DNA of 64,000 nt from Methanooceanicella nereidis (GTDB lineage: Archaea > Halobacteriota > Methanocellia > Methanocellales > Methanocellaceae), in NCBI RefSeq assembly GCF_021023085.1, contig NZ_PGCK01000005.1, positions 62,001-126,000 on the forward strand, read 5' to 3'. The notes beneath the pieces were generated by a model, which was not told the origin of the DNA, did not search any database, and was given only the letters and a program-made list of their open reading frames with translations. Below, one piece after another: positions 26,742 through 34,626 of the stretch (position 1 is the stretch's first letter; every line of letters starts with the position of its first letter). Both the position numbers and the translations under genes were made by a program.

Positions 26742-27794
26742 TTACGCCATCGGGAACCTTAGCAGCGCTGCTATCCCGCCAAGCTTTTCAAGCCTCTGGC
26801 CCGGCTCGAACTCGGTGGAGAATACGACCACTTTACCCCTGGAGTATTCCACGCTCCGCATCATTTCCTCGACGTCGGACATACCTTTCTCGCGGAAGTT
26901 ACGTAAGGTCTCATCCGCTATCAATAAAGTCTCCACAGCGCCGAAATCTACTGCCTTTTTAGTCTCATTATACCCGTATGCGGCCTTGCCGTCCTTCGCG
27001 ATCTCTGCCATGAGGCTTTCGATATAGGTGGCCTCGCGGGTGATCCTGGTCTCTTCTATCAATCTCTGTAAAGCGCCTCTCCTCAGGACTTCCTGGAAGC
27101 CGGATGAGCCTATCGAGGAAGTGTCTTCGACGACGACCTTTTCTGCGACCTCTTTGTAGTTGCTCTTGAGGAACTTCACGAAATCGTCCTTGATAAAGCC
27201 GGGCCCGGCGACCACTATGGTCTGGGCTTTTTCCGCATATTTTAACTGGGATGCCACTTCGCCGAAGAAATCCCCTCTGGCGTCGGTGCCTTCGCGTTTT
27301 CCGGAGGATGATTGCCTTATCCTGGATACTTCCTCGACTCCGTACTGTCTGACGTTGCCGATCACGGCTTCGCCTTCCTCTATCGTGGCTATGACGACCT
27401 CGGGGCGCTTTGCAGCCTCGACCGCCTCATGTACACGCTCTAGCTGGTCGTTCTTCCAGTATTTTACTATGGATAGCTCGTTGAACGGCTCTATGTTGAT
27501 AGTATGATATGCGCCAGTGTCAAGATCAGAGACTATAGTGCCTTTTATCCTGAGCCTGTTTGAGAACTTGTGGAATTCCACGGTCTCGACGTCAACGCCG
27601 AGCCTCACCAGCTTTTTCTCTATCTTGTCAGGCCTTATCTTATCGGAGACCGCGTCAACCGCCCTGAATGTCATAGCGAACACAAGGTCATGGGGCTCTA
27701 TAATGTACTTTAAGTGCCAGAGATCGTCCAGCGACTCGGGCGTCAGCGATATTTCGCCCTGGTGTCCCTTCAGTTCCTGCTTGTTGACCTTCAT
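26742..27794 (-). CDS. pelA: mRNA surveillance protein Pelota (Dom34)
   Basis: Pelota is the eRF1-like factor that, with aEF1A/ABCE1, rescues ribosomes stalled without a stop codon. Domain 1 (residues 1-130) is Sm-like, with MTFRAVDAV and RIKGTIVSD. The central domain has the VVAGPGFIKDDFVKFL segment. The C-terminal domain contains KAVDFGAVETLLIADETL and the family ending GQRLEKLGGIAALLRF. The length of 350 aa is normal. The ATG overlaps the rqcH stop by four bases, so rescue and quality-control factors are coupled. Confidence 0.96.
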   Translation of the reverse strand: MKVNKQELKGHQGEISLTPESLDDLWHLKYIIEPHDLVFAMTFRAVDAVSDKIRPDKIEKKLVRLGVDVETVEFHKFSNRLRIKGTIVSDLDTGAYHTINIEPFNELSIVKYWKNDQLERVHEAVEAAKRPEVVIATIEEGEAVIGNVRQYGVEEVSRIRQSSSGKREGTDARGDFFGEVASQLKYAEKAQTIVVAGPGFIKDDFVKFLKSNYKEVAEKVVVEDTSSIGSSGFQEVLRRGALQRLIEETRITREATYIESLMAEIAKDGKAAYGYNETKKAVDFGAVETLLIADETLRNFREKGMSDVEEMMRSVEYSRGKVVVFSTEFEPGQRLEKLGGIAALLRFPMA

Positions 27795-29785
27795 TGTATT
27801 ATCCTCGACTCTCCTGCGGGCATGAACGGGGATATTTTGTCAGGCGACGCTATCTGCCTGATGACCTTCGCGTCTTCCTCACTGGCTTTGTCGACAAAGT
27901 AGCGGTATATTTTTTTGGCCATGTCGTCCTGGTTGTACTCTCCGGGCTCTATTGTAACATGATACTTCGCCCTGGACTTTACCGAATCGACCGGCCCGCC
28001 TATAATGTAATATCCGGTCTCGTCCACCCTTATGCCGACCGCCGCCCTTACCTGCACGTCGTTGAAATAGTTTCTTTCGCCGCGTATAATAAATGCACCC
28101 TTCGCGACATATTCACCCGATTCCGGGGTCTTCGATACCTGCTCGGGCTTTACCCAGTAGCAGTCTCCCGAATACTGTTTCGCTTTCCATACCGATGAAT
28201 ATGATACCGCGAACTGTGCGACCTCGTTCAACGCCTGCTCGGTCACCTGCTTTCCTTCCGTCTTTACCACCGTGATAGGTGCTCCGTGTGCCTGTGCATG
28301 GAAGAATATGTCCTTGTTCTCCATGTACTTCTTGACGACCTCTTCATTAGTGTCCGCGTCTCTGCCGGCGATCACTAAGAAGCCGTCCGACGTGTAGAAC
28401 CACCTGAACCTCTCGTACCATCTCGGCTTACGGCGCTGGACCGTTACCTTCTTGTGGTTAGCCGCTTTTTCCTGGGGCTGTGCCTTTGCTATAAGCTTCT
28501 TCGTTTGCTCGATGGCCTTCAGCGCGCCTTCTTTCTTGGACTGTACCTTCTTGGCCTTTTCATAATAGACCTGCGCGTTTTGCGGCACCGTCAGGTTGAT
28601 ATTAAGGTTTACAGTGGCTTCAGGGATGTTCACGGTCAGCGTTCCGGTCGCGGAGTCTATGGCCTGTATCATCGATGCGGCAGCGTTGCCGGTCTTTTTA
28701 GCATCTTTCAGTATCTTACGGATGTCATCCCAGGAGTAGCCTTTTTCCCTTGCCCCTTTAATGACCTTGAGGACCTCTTCCACCTTCGGGTATTCGGCGT
28801 ATATGACCTCGCCTTTCCTGACGTTCTCCTTTTCATCCTTCTCGAACTTCTTGATGGCATCTTCCTGCTGCCTTAAACGCCTCTCAAAGACATTGAGCTT
28901 CTCCTCTTTCTTTTCGACTATCGCTGCCTTTACCTCGGTAGCTACCTGCTTACTGTAGTATGCGTCGAGCGCCTTGTTGAAAGATTCGAAGTACACTTTT
29001 TGATGGTTTTCATATTTTTTCAGCTCTAAAGGCAGGACGTCAATATCCTTTCCGTTTTCCTGAACGATATATGCCCTGTACGTCCCGTCTGCCAGCGGCC
29101 TGAACAGTGCCTGGATAGCGCTCAACAGCAGCCTTATCTCGCTTTCGACCAGCGTCCTGGCTTCCTTGTTCTTATCGATGCCTGCCTTCAGGCAAGCCTC
29201 TTCCGCGTACATGCCGCCGATGTTGGTCTGGGTGGCGATCGTCCTTACGACGTCCTTATCGGAATCCGAGAATAATTGGGACAGCCTCTCTACGGTGAGC
29301 TCGAAGGGGCTTAGCTGTGCGGGCGGGAACTCGTACTGTTCGCCCCTGACAACGTCCCTGTCCCTCATCTTAAGGGACTTGAGGGGCATCATGATGCGCC
29401 TCTGGTCGTCTAAAAGTATGACGTTGCCCCTGTTGAATAGCTCCACCACAAGGGTGTTTTTCACCCCTCCCCTGGTCACGTCTATCTCTAAGATACGGTC
29501 GAAAGCGTGCTGCTCCAGTCTGGTGATACGCCCTCCCATCATGTATTTTCTCAGCATCATGGGGAACGCCGGCGGCAGCTTCGGGGATTCCCGGGGGTGT
29601 TCCGTGATATGGAACCTTTTACCTGCTTCGGCAATGAGGTCGTACTTGCCTGTCTTGAATTCCTGGACCTTCAGGCGGATCTCGTCGGCCGTGTGCTGGT
29701 ATGCTTTCTCCAGCTTGGCGTCGATCAGGAACTGCATCTCTTTTACGACTGTGTAAACGTCGACGCTTGTCATTTCTTCTTTCAT
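27791..29785 (-). CDS. rqcH: Ribosome quality control factor RqcH (NEMF/Rqc2 family)
   Basis: This NFACT-family protein binds split large subunits carrying a peptidyl-tRNA and, in bacteria and eukaryotes, adds C-terminal Ala/Thr tails. The N domain begins MTSVDVYTVVKEMQFLIDAK. A long coiled coil spans about residues 290-450. The NFACT-R domain holds KPRWYERFRWFYTSDGFLVIAGRDADTNE followed by KDIFFHAQAHGAP (shown in two parts). The start is ATG 29785, with GGGTAAG upstream; GTG 29794 and ATG 29773 are alternatives. Older databases call it fibronectin-binding protein. It forms an operon with pelA. Confidence 0.94.
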   Translation of the reverse strand: MKEEMTSVDVYTVVKEMQFLIDAKLEKAYQHTADEIRLKVQEFKTGKYDLIAEAGKRFHITEHPRESPKLPPAFPMMLRKYMMGGRITRLEQHAFDRILEIDVTRGGVKNTLVVELFNRGNVILLDDQRRIMMPLKSLKMRDRDVVRGEQYEFPPAQLSPFELTVERLSQLFSDSDKDVVRTIATQTNIGGMYAEEACLKAGIDKNKEARTLVESEIRLLLSAIQALFRPLADGTYRAYIVQENGKDIDVLPLELKKYENHQKVYFESFNKALDAYYSKQVATEVKAAIVEKKEEKLNVFERRLRQQEDAIKKFEKDEKENVRKGEVIYAEYPKVEEVLKVIKGAREKGYSWDDIRKILKDAKKTGNAAASMIQAIDSATGTLTVNIPEATVNLNINLTVPQNAQVYYEKAKKVQSKKEGALKAIEQTKKLIAKAQPQEKAANHKKVTVQRRKPRWYERFRWFYTSDGFLVIAGRDADTNEEVVKKYMENKDIFFHAQAHGAPITVVKTEGKQVTEQALNEVAQFAVSYSSVWKAKQYSGDCYWVKPEQVSKTPESGEYVAKGAFIIRGERNYFNDVQVRAAVGIRVDETGYYIIGGPVDSVKSRAKYHVTIEPGEYNQDDMAKKIYRYFVDKASEEDAKVIRQIASPDKISPFMPAGESRIIQ

Positions 29786-29969
29786 TTGATACACTTACCC
29801 TAATGATTTTTTTAAAAAGTATAAAGCGATGAATTTGATTTTCTTGTAACAAAAGAATGTGCTGATAAATAAACTTTAGCATCGAAGGCTTCGCATATTT
29901 CAAGAATCGCTTTTTGTTGTCCTCACCTTTATTTTCATTGAGGCCGAAATTTTATTTTGAGGTGGGCTT

Positions 29970-30608
29970 ATGTCCCGGGACTTGTTGAAAACGTTAGCCC
30001 TTATTGCCATAATATTAGCTGTCATAGCTATTATCGCTTTATTTGTTTCAGGTTATATTTCCGCATTCTTCCCTGGCCGTACTATAGACCAGAGCAAAGG
30101 CGTCAGCGAGAAGACAGGCATCAGAGGCATAGCAGGAGGGGCCAGAAGCACTGCTCCGTCATCAGAAGCGGCTAAAACAGCGCCGCAGGGATTTCCCGGA
30201 ATGAACATGACACAGCCTCCGCCCGAAATGATGCCCGTAAGCCCTCCGGAGCAGCATACGGAGCAGCACAGGTATATGTCTCAAGGATACAGGATGCCGC
30301 AGGGGATACCTATGGGATACCCTGCAGAAGGCTATCCGCCAATGATGCCCGGAGTGCCTTCACCTCAACCGGGCGAAAAGAACGTGACGACGCCTGCTCC
30401 TACAGTGCCGGTAAGATATCCGTCTGCAGGTACACCCGCAATTCAATACCCGCCGGTCTATGAGCAGCCTGAAACTGACTGGCCTTACATTCTCAGGGCA
30501 CTGATGCAGGTATTACCGTTCATATTCTCAAAACAGGGTGGCGTTAACCCGCTATGGCCGGTGTGGCCGGAATACAGCCCGGCGTTCCAGTGGCCTCAAC
30601 AATACTAA
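29970..30608 (+). CDS. Membrane-anchored Pro/Met-rich protein of unknown function
   Basis: One N-terminal membrane helix (LLKTLALIAIILAVIAIIAL, residues 5-24) is followed by ~150 residues of low-complexity Pro/Met/Gln/Tyr sequence (GIPMGYPAEGYPPMMPG and similar) that is probably extracellular and disordered. The C-terminus is aromatic (PLWPVWPEYSPAFQWPQQY). No family is recognised. GAGGTGGG lies just before the ATG. It converges with the radical SAM gene and overlaps its end by four bases. The Tyr/Trp/Pro content would suit a surface or adhesive protein. Confidence 0.7.
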   Translation: MSRDLLKTLALIAIILAVIAIIALFVSGYISAFFPGRTIDQSKGVSEKTGIRGIAGGARSTAPSSEAAKTAPQGFPGMNMTQPPPEMMPVSPPEQHTEQHRYMSQGYRMPQGIPMGYPAEGYPPMMPGVPSPQPGEKNVTTPAPTVPVRYPSAGTPAIQYPPVYEQPETDWPYILRALMQVLPFIFSKQGGVNPLWPVWPEYSPAFQWPQQY

Positions 30609-31873
30609 AATCCGCACTGCAGGTCCAGCGGACACCCTCCGCCGCAATACTGGAACTGTACGCAGTTCCTGCATTTATCAGGCGCGAAACCATGCTCCCT
30701 CAGCTTTTTCGCCAGGTCACATTCCCATATCTTTTCAAGGTCGTCCGTCAGCGCGTTCCCCATAGGCTTAAAATAAGACTGGCACGGTAAAACGCTGCCG
30801 TCCGGCTCTACAGCAAGAGTAAGCCTGGCCGCGGAGCACGCTTTTATCCCCAGGCCCATCTCTATCGGGTTAATATGGTGATACCTTGTCGGCGTATACC
30901 ATATGAACTCCATGCTGTGAGCTTCGGCTGTATCGATGATGTCGGGTAAAAGCACTTTCAGCTCATCGACCGGGACACCTTCAGTCTCTACTCCTCTGTT
31001 CGCCCTTATGATGGCGTTGATGCCGAACTTCTTTATGCCGAGGCTGTTCAGGAACGGTATCAGGTCGAGTATAGTATCCTTATTCTTCTCCGTGATCGTG
31101 GTATTAGTGGTCGTATATACCTTGCTGACGACGTTCTTTATGCCTGCCACCGTCTCCTTGAACGCGTTCGCCCCGCACATCTCGTTATGTATCTTCGGGT
31201 CCGGCGACTCGATAGTGATCTGCACATAGTCAAGCCCGGCCTTATTCAGCGAATCCACGCGCTCTGGAGTGAGCAGCCTTCCGTTAGTGATAAGTCCTGT
31301 GACGGCGCCAAGCTTCTCGGCATATATGATAAGTTCCTCGAGGTCGTCGCGCATCAGCGCTTCCCCGCCGGTAAAAACGAGATTAGGGACCTCGAAGTCG
31401 ACGCACTTCTTAATGATCTTCTTCCACTCGTCAGTGGTCAATTCCTTCGTCGTTTTCGGGCCGCCGACATAGCAGTGTCCGCAATTATTGTTACACCTGT
31501 AAGTTATGGCAAGGTCTATCCTCAGCGGTGCTTTCAAAAGCTGATGCTCAGGCTCCTTCATCTTGACGTCGTAACATGAGAAAGGACATGCGTTATCCTC
31601 GGCGACTCCCCACATGATGCTCTGGAGGCGCTCATAGTCGGCGCTGGCTCGTTCCTTACTGACTTTGTATTTCATCATGATGCGAAGCAGCACGTTATCC
31701 TTGATGCTTCCGACAAGCGGGGGCTTTTCGTTATACTTCATATAATATCTCATGAAGTCAGTCCCGATGCGGTCAAGGTAAAGGATATAGGAAGCGTTCA
31801 CTATCAGCAGTCCGGTGCCGTCCTTCTCTTCTCTCAGGTGCAGCCTTGAGCCGTCTATCCTTGTCTTTATCAT
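30605..31873 (-). CDS. Radical SAM/SPASM enzyme with PqqD-like N-terminus, likely peptide-modifying
   Basis: This is a radical S-adenosylmethionine enzyme. The core motif CNNNCGHC (CX3CX2C) lies near residue 125, followed by VFTGGEALMR. The C-terminal SPASM region has the further cysteines for auxiliary Fe-S clusters: KACSAARLTLAVEPDGSVLPC, then CRNCVQFQYCGGGCPLDLQC. The first ~90 residues (YILYLDRIGTDFMRYYM and following) resemble the PqqD/RRE precursor-binding domain. I start at ATG 31873, which overlaps the upstream stop as ATGA and has AGGAGG six bases before it. The upstream gene encodes a Cys-Ala repeat tail, the obvious candidate substrate. Confidence 0.9.
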   Translation of the reverse strand: MIKTRIDGSRLHLREEKDGTGLLIVNASYILYLDRIGTDFMRYYMKYNEKPPLVGSIKDNVLLRIMMKYKVSKERASADYERLQSIMWGVAEDNACPFSCYDVKMKEPEHQLLKAPLRIDLAITYRCNNNCGHCYVGGPKTTKELTTDEWKKIIKKCVDFEVPNLVFTGGEALMRDDLEELIIYAEKLGAVTGLITNGRLLTPERVDSLNKAGLDYVQITIESPDPKIHNEMCGANAFKETVAGIKNVVSKVYTTTNTTITEKNKDTILDLIPFLNSLGIKKFGINAIIRANRGVETEGVPVDELKVLLPDIIDTAEAHSMEFIWYTPTRYHHINPIEMGLGIKACSAARLTLAVEPDGSVLPCQSYFKPMGNALTDDLEKIWECDLAKKLREHGFAPDKCRNCVQFQYCGGGCPLDLQCGF

Positions 31874-33561
31874 GTACATCCTCCTCCGCCGCCGGCACAT
31901 GCACACGCACACGCACAGGATACGCATGCACAGGCGCAGGATACGCAGGCGCATGAAGTCCTTCCGGTAGGCGCTGCGTACGAGCCTCTGATATTTGAAG
32001 TGGGCGGCGGCGCATTAGCCTCTTTCCTCACCCCGATGAACCTTTCAACGTTAGCTACGACGCCGGCGGAAAACGATTCGACAGAATTACTGATCGAGTT
32101 CGCGAAATTCTCTACCGTCGCGGTGGTCCTGTCTGTCGGCCTCGGCACTTCGGGCGTAGGAGTGGGAACGGGCTTCGCCGCTTCTTCGCCTCTCGTCGGG
32201 ACCCTGTACTCGTAGGGACGCGGAAGTCCCCAGTAATACGGGTACCACCAGTAATACGGTGGCACGCGGTAAGTATCGCTTCCGGGCGCATCGGAAACAT
32301 ACTCTTTTGTCTTTTCCTTGAACTCCTCGTCAGCGAGCAGCCACATCATGTTAGAGTCATATTTTTCGAGTTTTAACTCCGGCGTCTCTACCGCTTTGAT
32401 CTCGTCCCATGCGGTGTATATCTTCTGCCGGTAATATACCTCGGTGTCCCTTCTGCAGTAAGGCCTTGTCTTATCAACCACACGGCGGGCTATGACCTTG
32501 AAGCACTCCAGAAGTTTAGCCTCGTCAAGCCTGTCGTCGACGATGGACTCTACGAATAGCTTTTCATAATATTTCAAGCCCTTTTTGGATACAAGTTCGA
32601 GCCTGATAGGGTCAGTAGAGATAAGCTTGATGTTGCCCTTTTTCATCAGCTGGAACATGATTATGGTCAATACTCTTTTTGGGTCGATACGAAGCAGCGT
32701 CGCGGCTTCCGCAGGGTCAAGTTCCTTGTTGACGCCGATCCCATCCATTTTTACTACAGGTGAACTATACGGGTTACGTTTTGTGGAAGCCCCTGCGAAT
32801 ATGATTATCATGAATATCCCGAAGAAGAATAACATCGGGCAGATGCATCCGCAGACATCTTCGAAGAAAAACGGCGTGACGCCGGGGAAGTACGGCTCTG
32901 CCGTGGGCTCGGCCTTACCAAAGACAGCTCCGGGCTGCATGTATTTATCGGGGAATGCCACCGCCACCTCGAACTTCTGGTTCGGCGCGAGATTTTTCTC
33001 CTCGAAATAAACGGCAAGCTGACCGTTCTCTATCATTGTATTATCATATTCACGCTTGCCGGTGAGCACTTCATCCTTGCTCACGCCTTCGGGAAGGTAT
33101 ATCTTGACCCTGGTATCATCGATGTACATGTCCCACCAGACGGGGATGAAAGTGACAATATCATACCCTTCCCGGTCCGCCTGATAAACGAACGGGTAGA
33201 GCGAAGAATAGATGTTAAGCTTAACGTTATCGCCGGGCCTCAGGTTAAAGTCCTGTATCTTTATCTGGCCGCCTTCTACCCTGAAGTCATGCCTTTTGCT
33301 GCTGCCGTCCTCCACATAATAGACTTTCTGGTTTGATGTCGTCAGAGGTATCCATACCTCGTTCCAGACACCCTTCACGATGTCAGCGTCTATACGGTAT
33401 TCCATGTAGACGACGCCAGTCGTATTAACGTCAAGCAGGACGTGCTGGTTATTGACCTGCCACCGGTATTCCTCGGCCGATGCCACAGGTGTCATTGATA
33501 ATATGATGATCGCGATGAACGTGATGCAAAGCGCTTTTTTAAAATCCGACGACATGTCCAT
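31870..33561 (-). CDS. DUF2207-type membrane protein with Cys-rich C-terminal tail
   Basis: The N-terminal signal peptide (ALCITFIAIIILSMTPVASA) precedes a ~200-residue extracytoplasmic domain of DUF2207 type. A membrane helix (CPMLFFFGIFMIIIFAGAS, around 240-260) and a cytosolic part with a helix-turn-helix-like segment (DPAEAATLLRIDPKRVLTII) follow. A Pro-rich linker then leads to a tail with ten cysteines in the last 27 residues, built of CAC and VSC units and ending in five Gly, Cys, Thr. By topology the tail is cytosolic and reachable by the coupled radical SAM enzyme. The start is ATG 33561 or 33555 (AAGGA upstream). It lies four bases after the preceding gene. Confidence 0.85.
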   Translation of the reverse strand: MDMSSDFKKALCITFIAIIILSMTPVASAEEYRWQVNNQHVLLDVNTTGVVYMEYRIDADIVKGVWNEVWIPLTTSNQKVYYVEDGSSKRHDFRVEGGQIKIQDFNLRPGDNVKLNIYSSLYPFVYQADREGYDIVTFIPVWWDMYIDDTRVKIYLPEGVSKDEVLTGKREYDNTMIENGQLAVYFEEKNLAPNQKFEVAVAFPDKYMQPGAVFGKAEPTAEPYFPGVTPFFFEDVCGCICPMLFFFGIFMIIIFAGASTKRNPYSSPVVKMDGIGVNKELDPAEAATLLRIDPKRVLTIIMFQLMKKGNIKLISTDPIRLELVSKKGLKYYEKLFVESIVDDRLDEAKLLECFKVIARRVVDKTRPYCRRDTEVYYRQKIYTAWDEIKAVETPELKLEKYDSNMMWLLADEEFKEKTKEYVSDAPGSDTYRVPPYYWWYPYYWGLPRPYEYRVPTRGEEAAKPVPTPTPEVPRPTDRTTATVENFANSISNSVESFSAGVVANVERFIGVRKEANAPPPTSNIRGSYAAPTGRTSCACVSCACACVSCACACACAGGGGGCT

Positions 33562-33564
33562 TCC

Positions 33565-34011
33565 TTATTCTATCTGTTTCTCCAATCCGAAAGGTATGAG
33601 CTCGGGGAACGAATAGGTTATGATGCCCGTATGCTCGGTCGCCTCAAGGTTTATCTCGCAAATGCCTTTCCGGGCCATCCTGTCGAGCACCATCTCCGCC
33701 TGGCTCGACTCGAAGCCGACGTTGATCAGGTCTGCGACGGTGACGCTGCCTTTGTTCTTCTTCGCCATGGCCAGCACCTGCCTTTCCATATTATGGTACC
33801 TGGCATCCTCCATTTTTTCTTCCATTAAAGCCGAATATGCCATATACCCCACGAAAGCCGCCGCTCCCAGCATGGCAAGCCCTACAAGGCCTGTCGCCAC
33901 GGACCAGCCTCGCCCCGCTATGACAGCCATGATTGTGATGAACCATACAGGAAGGCTTATGGCGATAATGCCCAGGCTGGCGAGTATCAACATGATGGTT
34001 TTTTGTTTCAC
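33565..34011 (-). CDS. Small membrane protein with C-terminal winged-helix-like domain
   Basis: Two N-terminal membrane helices (residues 5-30 and 38-62) are followed by a charged helix and a ~75-residue domain. That domain (NKGSVTVADLINVGFESSQAEMVLDRMARKG, given across the motif) looks like a winged helix that separates strands and recognition helix. No named family is recognised. It is the first gene of the three-gene operon with the DUF2207 and radical SAM genes (three-base spacing), so it may sense or regulate that system. Confidence 0.75.
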   Translation of the reverse strand: MKQKTIMLILASLGIIAISLPVWFITIMAVIAGRGWSVATGLVGLAMLGAAAFVGYMAYSALMEEKMEDARYHNMERQVLAMAKKNKGSVTVADLINVGFESSQAEMVLDRMARKGICEINLEATEHTGIITYSFPELIPFGLEKQIE

Positions 34012-34050: not shown

Positions 34051-34626
34051 CTATGAGGCCCACAGGGCTTTAATTAGTGCCATCGATAAAAACGCGGCGA
34101 CAGGTATCCAGAGATTTTCCAGCTTACCTGCGTATGCCTCTGTGATCATGCCTGCGATAGAGCCGATAAAAATGAGAGGCCCTACAAAAAAATACCCGAC
34201 AGCCGATGAAACGATAATGCCTGAAACTGTCCCCGCCAGCGTCTTTTTTGTATATGGCAATTTACGCCTGCCGAACTTCTTTCCCATCGTACTTGCGACC
34301 CCGTCACCCAGCGTCAGCACTATGATACTTGCATAACAAACTTCTGGCGCATAGTACAAGGAAATGACTAGCAGCCCGGCTATGGAGACAAGATAAAGAA
34401 AAGGCTCGAACGCACATCCTTTCATCTCCCCGTCGCGATAAAGGATTGATAGATACTCTTTTTTGACATAACGCTTCGCTAGCTCAAGCGCGATAAAAAC
34501 GGCCAGTCCCAGCGATATGAGCGCGATCGAGATATATGCCGAATAAAGGGCGATGAAAACAAAAGCCGTGCCGGAGATATGCACCAGTTTCCTGGGCTCG
34601 ATGATATGAAACGCTTCCATACCCAT
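34051..34626 (-). CDS. Dolichol/phytol/diacylglycerol kinase-like membrane protein
   Basis: This is a polytopic protein of 191 residues of the SEC59/DGK1/VTE5 superfamily, which phosphorylates isoprenoid alcohols or lipids with CTP. The motif LTLGDGVASTMGKKFGRRKL, followed by KKTLAGTVSG, is the superfamily signature. The N-terminal EPRKLVHISG is also typical. About six hydrophobic segments are present. In archaea the likely substrates are dolichol or recycled isoprenoid alcohols for ether lipids and glycan carriers, but the sequence cannot decide. The gene is downstream of purM on the same strand. Confidence 0.82.
   Translation of the reverse strand: MGMEAFHIIEPRKLVHISGTAFVFIALYSAYISIALISLGLAVFIALELAKRYVKKEYLSILYRDGEMKGCAFEPFLYLVSIAGLLVISLYYAPEVCYASIIVLTLGDGVASTMGKKFGRRKLPYTKKTLAGTVSGIIVSSAVGYFFVGPLIFIGSIAGMITEAYAGKLENLWIPVAAFLSMALIKALWAS

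Follow-up and report, generated by a model that had tools for sequence, protein, structure and literature searches.

Radical SAM/SPASM enzymes that carry an RRE have been known chiefly for making small peptides. In Methanooceanicella nereidis (GCF_021023085.1), the gene for such an enzyme overlaps that of a membrane protein with a Cys-rich end, and the question raised by this locus is whether the enzyme can act on a tail that belongs to a full-size membrane protein, and what would then become of that tail. The window analyzed is a stretch of 64,000 nucleotides, positions 62,001-126,000 of the forward strand of contig NZ_PGCK01000005.1. The reading favored here, with a probability of roughly 0.7, is that the genes form a module dedicated to modifying the end of a membrane protein, with the tail being remodelled and retained.

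Gene layout and predicted topology of the tail protein

The module consists of three minus-strand genes (33565-34011, 31870-33561 and 30605-31873 in the open reading frames of the window), in the order given by a preliminary description of this DNA. The second gene and the enzyme gene overlap in ATGA (31873-31870, minus strand), where the stop codon TGA meets the start codon ATG as that description had also stated, and the junction ACATGA is identical in the other three Methanocellales genomes. The Shine-Dalgarno sequence of the enzyme, AGGAGG (31880-31885, minus strand), is located 6 nt ahead of the ATG at 31873 and falls within the Gly codons of the tail; an upstream enzyme start at 31954 in the list of open reading frames is probably unused, the start at 31873 being preferred by Shine-Dalgarno spacing. 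Around the module, a gene for a single-TM Pro/Gln-rich protein (29970-30608, plus strand) is convergent with the enzyme gene and has a similar gene in genome G001, and RqcH, a ribosome rescue protein (NF041120, 808 bits), is encoded at 27791-29794 on the minus strand. On the other side, a membrane protein with a weak match to CTP_transf_1 (34051-34626, minus strand), which we take to be possibly a dolichol- or diacylglycerol-kinase-like enzyme, has a similar gene in the same position in genomes G001 and G002.

The tail gene (31870-33561, minus strand) encodes a DUF2207-like membrane protein of 563 residues, so described on the basis of borderline Pfam scores, an AlphaFold model and hydropathy. 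The DUF2207-type identity previously proposed for it remains at the border: the score for DUF2207 (PF09972) was 23.9 in hmmscan, below the gathering cut-off of 24.4, but 25.2 in another search, and just two of 30 homologues match the family at E 0.1. TIGR04222 scored 11.1 against a cut-off of 43, and four of the 30 homologues match it weakly (best E 8e-4). In the model, an N-terminal helix is followed by a beta ectodomain (residues 33-204), a TM helix (230-258), positive residues, a helical domain (283-423), helices at 483-516 and a disordered tail; the predicted topology is a signal peptide, an ectodomain, a TM segment and a cytoplasmic part comprising the helical domain and a linker. The ectodomain (32950-33465, minus strand) resembles ribophorin I/Ost1 of oligosaccharyltransferase (Foldseek, with a weak match to Pfam Ribophorin_I) and also the N-domain of M1 aminopeptidases (Foldseek). 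DUF2207 proteins have been described with the C-terminus inside the cell (PMC10457818). Because the predicted topology and this published description agree in placing the C-terminus inside, the tail is very likely cytoplasmic, and the 'surface-linked' tail of the preliminary description is left without support: the predicted topology puts the tail in the compartment where the radical SAM enzyme works.

The tail itself, SCACVSCACACVSCACACACAGGGGGCT (31873-31956, minus strand), consists of 28 residues, with ten Cys and five Gly in a row, the counts first reported for it, and is the presumed substrate. The tail/enzyme pair is present in all four Methanocellales genomes in the collection for the class of the window genome, one of which is Methanocella sp. 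PtaU1.Bin125 (L112). Among these four genomes the tail is invariant save for one change of VS to AH, in G002, and the remainder of the protein is only 57-64% identical. Between pairs of these genomes 186-240 codons outside the tail differ by amino acid; the 28 codons of the tail contain 0-2 amino-acid changes versus 9-15 silent changes, and roughly one tail codon in two has a silent change. It is the protein sequence of the tail that is strongly constrained.

Anatomy and relatives of the enzyme

The enzyme (30605-31873, minus strand) is a protein of 422 residues with the order RRE (PqqD-like), radical SAM and SPASM, assigned by Pfam, AlphaFold and Foldseek; the Pfam scores are 9e-28 for Radical_SAM and 1e-10 for SPASM. 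The cysteines noted in the preliminary description were found: the CX3CX2C cluster ligands C127, C131 and C134 (31472-31495, minus strand), which are invariant across the 35 aligned members of the family (alignment A1), and seven SPASM cysteines (346, 364, 401, 404, 410, 414 and 420; 30614-30838, minus strand) in the pattern CX17CXnCX2CX5CX3CX5C, of which C346 and C364 are invariant in the same alignment and C401, C404, C410 and C414 are kept in at least 90% of members. In Bacillota members the SPASM region is reduced. The PqqD-like N-terminus proposed earlier (residues 1-95; 31589-31873, minus strand) is supported: Pfam PqqD matches 24 of the 35 aligned members (best E 7e-7), and the AlphaFold model (pLDDT 92.6) has strands at residues 2-33 followed by helices at 35-49, 57-69 and 73-91, as in an RRE, but the N-terminus of the window enzyme itself receives no Pfam PqqD score.

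The top folds retrieved by Foldseek were SuiB (2.9e-18), SkfB (7.4e-18) and CteB (8.6e-15), with anSME also among the nearest, and the best full-length sequence match that includes the RRE is the sactionine synthase SkfB. Identity of the window enzyme to most relatives outside Methanocellales is about 36-46%, and 30-33% to those of Bacillota. No NCBIfam family exceeded its cut-off for the enzyme (best 123.6 against 525, for TIGR04347), nor did any of seven proteins of related loci for the listed NCBIfam families.

Distribution and co-inheritance of tail and enzyme

A scan of GTDB with patterns derived from the tail protein gave no match, because the patterns came from the fast-evolving body of that protein. 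The survey of tails therefore used a DNA pattern for CACACAGGG over GTDB genomes, which matched at least 118 contig stretches. Among the matches listed, 113 of 118 stretches contain true tails, 114 tails in all from about 20 phyla; the other five (L057, L058, L069, L079 and L099) were rejected as chance matches of the pattern within unrelated frames. Among these matches, Bacillota contribute 45 tails and Chloroflexota 27, and the others belong to Thermoproteota, Heimdall-, Hod- and Sigynarchaeota, Bathyarchaeota, Thermoplasmatota (including Methanomassiliicoccales), Planctomycetota, Armatimonadota, Acidobacteriota, Fermentibacterota and further phyla. The system is far wider than the methanogens. 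A majority of the listed tails are at or close to the C-terminal end of a membrane protein. The Bacillota tail extends past GGGR with a conserved end AGC[ST].KDFY (for example L063, 2906-4216, minus strand, and other Bacillota loci).

A search with the window enzyme found a family member in the retrieved slice for 92 of the 114 listed tails; it has kept its motif intact in 81 cases and is no more than 350 nt away in 73. Sixteen tail genomes without an intact enzyme in the slice were searched whole, and 15 have one (E 1e-116 to 1e-195); fourteen of the 16 had no family match anywhere in the slice, and in 13 of these the enzyme is encoded elsewhere in the genome. A whole-genome search of the exception, L121 (a 1.7 Mb MAG), found no enzyme. 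The remaining eight slices without a match were not in the whole-genome set, and in most of them the tail is near the slice end. The converse comparison used 379 Chloroflexota genomes with a completeness of 90% or more, an intact enzyme being defined by E<1e-140: the intact enzyme and the tail each occur in 33, and these are the identical 33 genomes (Fisher p 3e-48), with both on one contig within 700 bp in 32. In four other Chloroflexota genomes, which lack the tail, the sole match is a SPASM relative of lower similarity (E about 1e-102), and a fifth (G496), also without a tail, has only a match of pseudo-enzyme strength. In Halobacteriota, tail and orthologous enzyme are found in the same four of 394 genomes, all Methanocellales, and the next best SPASM proteins (E 1e-38) nearly all align only from residue 100 on. 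Two outcomes had been named in advance as fatal to the proposal, tails routinely lacking a SPASM neighbor and an enzyme conserved without the tail, and neither was encountered in these counts.

The pairing is kept while gene order changes: in archaea and most Chloroflexota the enzyme gene comes after that for the tail protein, and in Bacillota it comes first. The Bacillota tail proteins differ in the body but share the tail and have a linked enzyme. Tail type tracks the enzyme tree, with 13 changes compared to a mean of 36.5 in shuffled data, and none of 200 shuffles was as low. The loci of alignments A1 and A2 were picked by the tail pattern, so that part of the tail conservation seen in A2 follows from this choice; the co-occurrence counts and the comparison within Methanocellales are free of that selection.

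Other genes recur at the module. The position ahead of the tail gene is taken, in Chloroflexota, Zixibacteria and several archaea, by a gene for a small 2-TM protein that has a zinc ribbon at its C-terminus and usually ends in [LV]TEEPKW. The third gene of the window module (33565-34011, minus strand; 148 residues), recognized by hydropathy and by its position as in other loci, occupies the same place without the zinc ribbon, which relatives in G002 and G003 keep, and is part of the module; its product is a 2-TM protein, and the 'winged-helix-like' domain once ascribed to it is not borne out by any family match. A second member of the enzyme family, in which CX3CX2C has been lost, is encoded at the module in Chloroflexota, Planctomycetota and Armatimonadota (L048, 4111-5313, plus strand; L092, 3680-5047, minus strand; L053, 1670-2974, plus strand); at least the copy in L048 keeps the PqqD-like domain. 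A class I methyltransferase is found near the module in at least 25 loci, downstream of it (L111, 3253-4017, plus strand; L132, 4724-5449, minus strand; 23 other loci), and in L132 it comes immediately after a tail gene without a linked enzyme. Clustering of all listed loci identified no exporter or peptidase that recurs beside the module; the ABC-transporter ATPases of nine listed loci are of unlike types and mostly far off.

Chemistry, fate and meaning of the proposed modification

Linkage, co-inheritance, constraint on the tail and the anatomy of the enzyme together support, as an inference without biochemistry, the original proposal that the enzyme acts on the tail of this full-size membrane protein, and this is considered highly probable. 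SuiB, SkfB and CteB, the nearest solved structures, all act on leader-delivered peptides, and by analogy the RRE of the enzyme would dock on its partner, the DUF2207-like membrane protein, while the radical SAM site would modify several Cys, or neighboring Ala or Gly, of the disordered cytoplasmic tail. The most likely outcome would be thioether bonds within the tail. Since the tail offers Cys as the likely donors and Ala and Gly as the likely acceptors, intramolecular thioether chemistry is the leading guess, held with a little less than even confidence; the adjacent Cys-Ala pairs of CACACA differ from the wider spacing of Cys and acceptor in known sactionine and ranthionine cores. The modified tail would remain on the membrane protein, as inferred because the genes have no protease or exporter as a conserved neighbor in the listed loci, and might then serve as a redox, metal-binding or sensing appendage, a final function for which the support is weak. 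Among the observations that count against a modification module, L121 has a tail with no enzyme found, and Bacillota have the same tail despite a reduced SPASM region.

The alternative that survives best, unlikely but to be kept in mind, is that the tail is modified by chemistry other than thioether formation, such as oxidation of the Cys C-beta as by anaerobic sulfatase maturases, carbon-carbon crosslinks, or a two-step process with the methyltransferase. SuiB makes C-C links, anSME is among the nearest folds, and the methyltransferase near at least 25 modules, placed directly after the tail gene in L132, hints at such other chemistry; but the methyltransferase is absent from the window locus, the window genome yields only weak matches to it, and the best full-length match with an RRE is a sactionine synthase. 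It is improbable that the tail is instead a thiolate site for metal or iron-sulfur binding, delivering to or receiving from the enzyme, or a docking peptide, with another protein such as the 2-TM zinc-ribbon partner as the substrate. The sequence is rich in CxC like metal-binding peptides and the zinc-ribbon protein is conserved too, but the window copy lacks the zinc ribbon where tail and enzyme are kept, Bacillota keep both despite the different body of the tail protein, and RRE domains in known systems bind the leader of the substrate itself. Slightly more doubtful still is cleavage and release of the tail as a small peptide, which would make it a RiPP whose very long leader is membrane-bound; GGG(R) could be the processing junction, and in favor of this the Bacillota sequence runs on after GGGR as if this were an inner site. 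Against it, no conserved peptidase or exporter is nearby in the listed loci, and the archaeal and Chloroflexota proteins end at the tail, for which a cytoplasmic location is predicted. Repeat slippage producing a low-complexity tail unlinked to the neighboring enzyme, suggested by the repeated CA units and by a Shine-Dalgarno sequence that would account for the Gly codons at the DNA level, is already refuted, as is DNA-level conservation, because the protein sequence of the tail is invariant while its codons vary (9-15 silent versus 0-2 amino-acid changes) and by the co-occurrence of tail and enzyme.

Modification of a retained tail is rated here as RRE-guided radical SAM modification, a known kind of process, acting on an unusual substrate, the pair itself being undescribed. 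No description of the pair was found in the open literature, subscription papers not being covered, and CACACAGGG occurred only in unrelated papers, apparently as DNA sequence. The SkfB, CteB and SuiB maturases share with the window enzyme the order of RRE, radical SAM and SPASM, the nearest fold and sequence, and a Cys-rich candidate substrate encoded next door, but they are only 18-19% identical to it and their substrate is a short peptide rather than a 563-residue membrane protein. RRE-containing RiPP maturases of the sactisynthase type have a short precursor with a removable leader and a linked protease or exporter; here the partner is the membrane protein instead, and neither protease nor exporter is a conserved neighbor in the listed loci. 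The SCIFF/six-Cys peptides with their CteB-type enzymes likewise combine a conserved Cys-rich sequence with a linked SPASM enzyme, but are small free peptides with other Cys spacing, and no NCBIfam score was over cut-off here. The nearest proposal in print concerns TIGR04222 membrane proteins, whose Cys-containing tails may be modified by MNIO enzymes (PMC12452194); there too a low-complexity C-terminal tail of a membrane protein is proposed as the substrate of a RiPP-type enzyme, but the enzyme is an MNIO and the tails are predicted to be periplasmic and are Ser/Gly-rich (PMC12452194). MNIO (PF05114) was found in none of the nine genomes tested. The DUF2207 protein SMU.243 is similar in having a large N-terminal domain outside, a large C-terminal part inside and a low-complexity end, but that end is Gly/Ser-rich, and neither a Cys tail nor a partner enzyme is described (PMC10457818).

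The invariant tail offers a direct target for detecting a modification, if there is one. On balance, and with somewhat better than even confidence, these genes may represent an undescribed, ancient and widespread kind of protein modification, found in mostly anaerobic archaea (including the Asgard group) and bacteria: a cytoplasmic Cys-Ala tail would be turned for good by a radical SAM enzyme into a cofactor-like appendage of the protein, rather than into a natural product. An RRE-SPASM enzyme tied to a full-size membrane protein in about 20 phyla among the matches listed suggests a housekeeping role, not one in microbial warfare.
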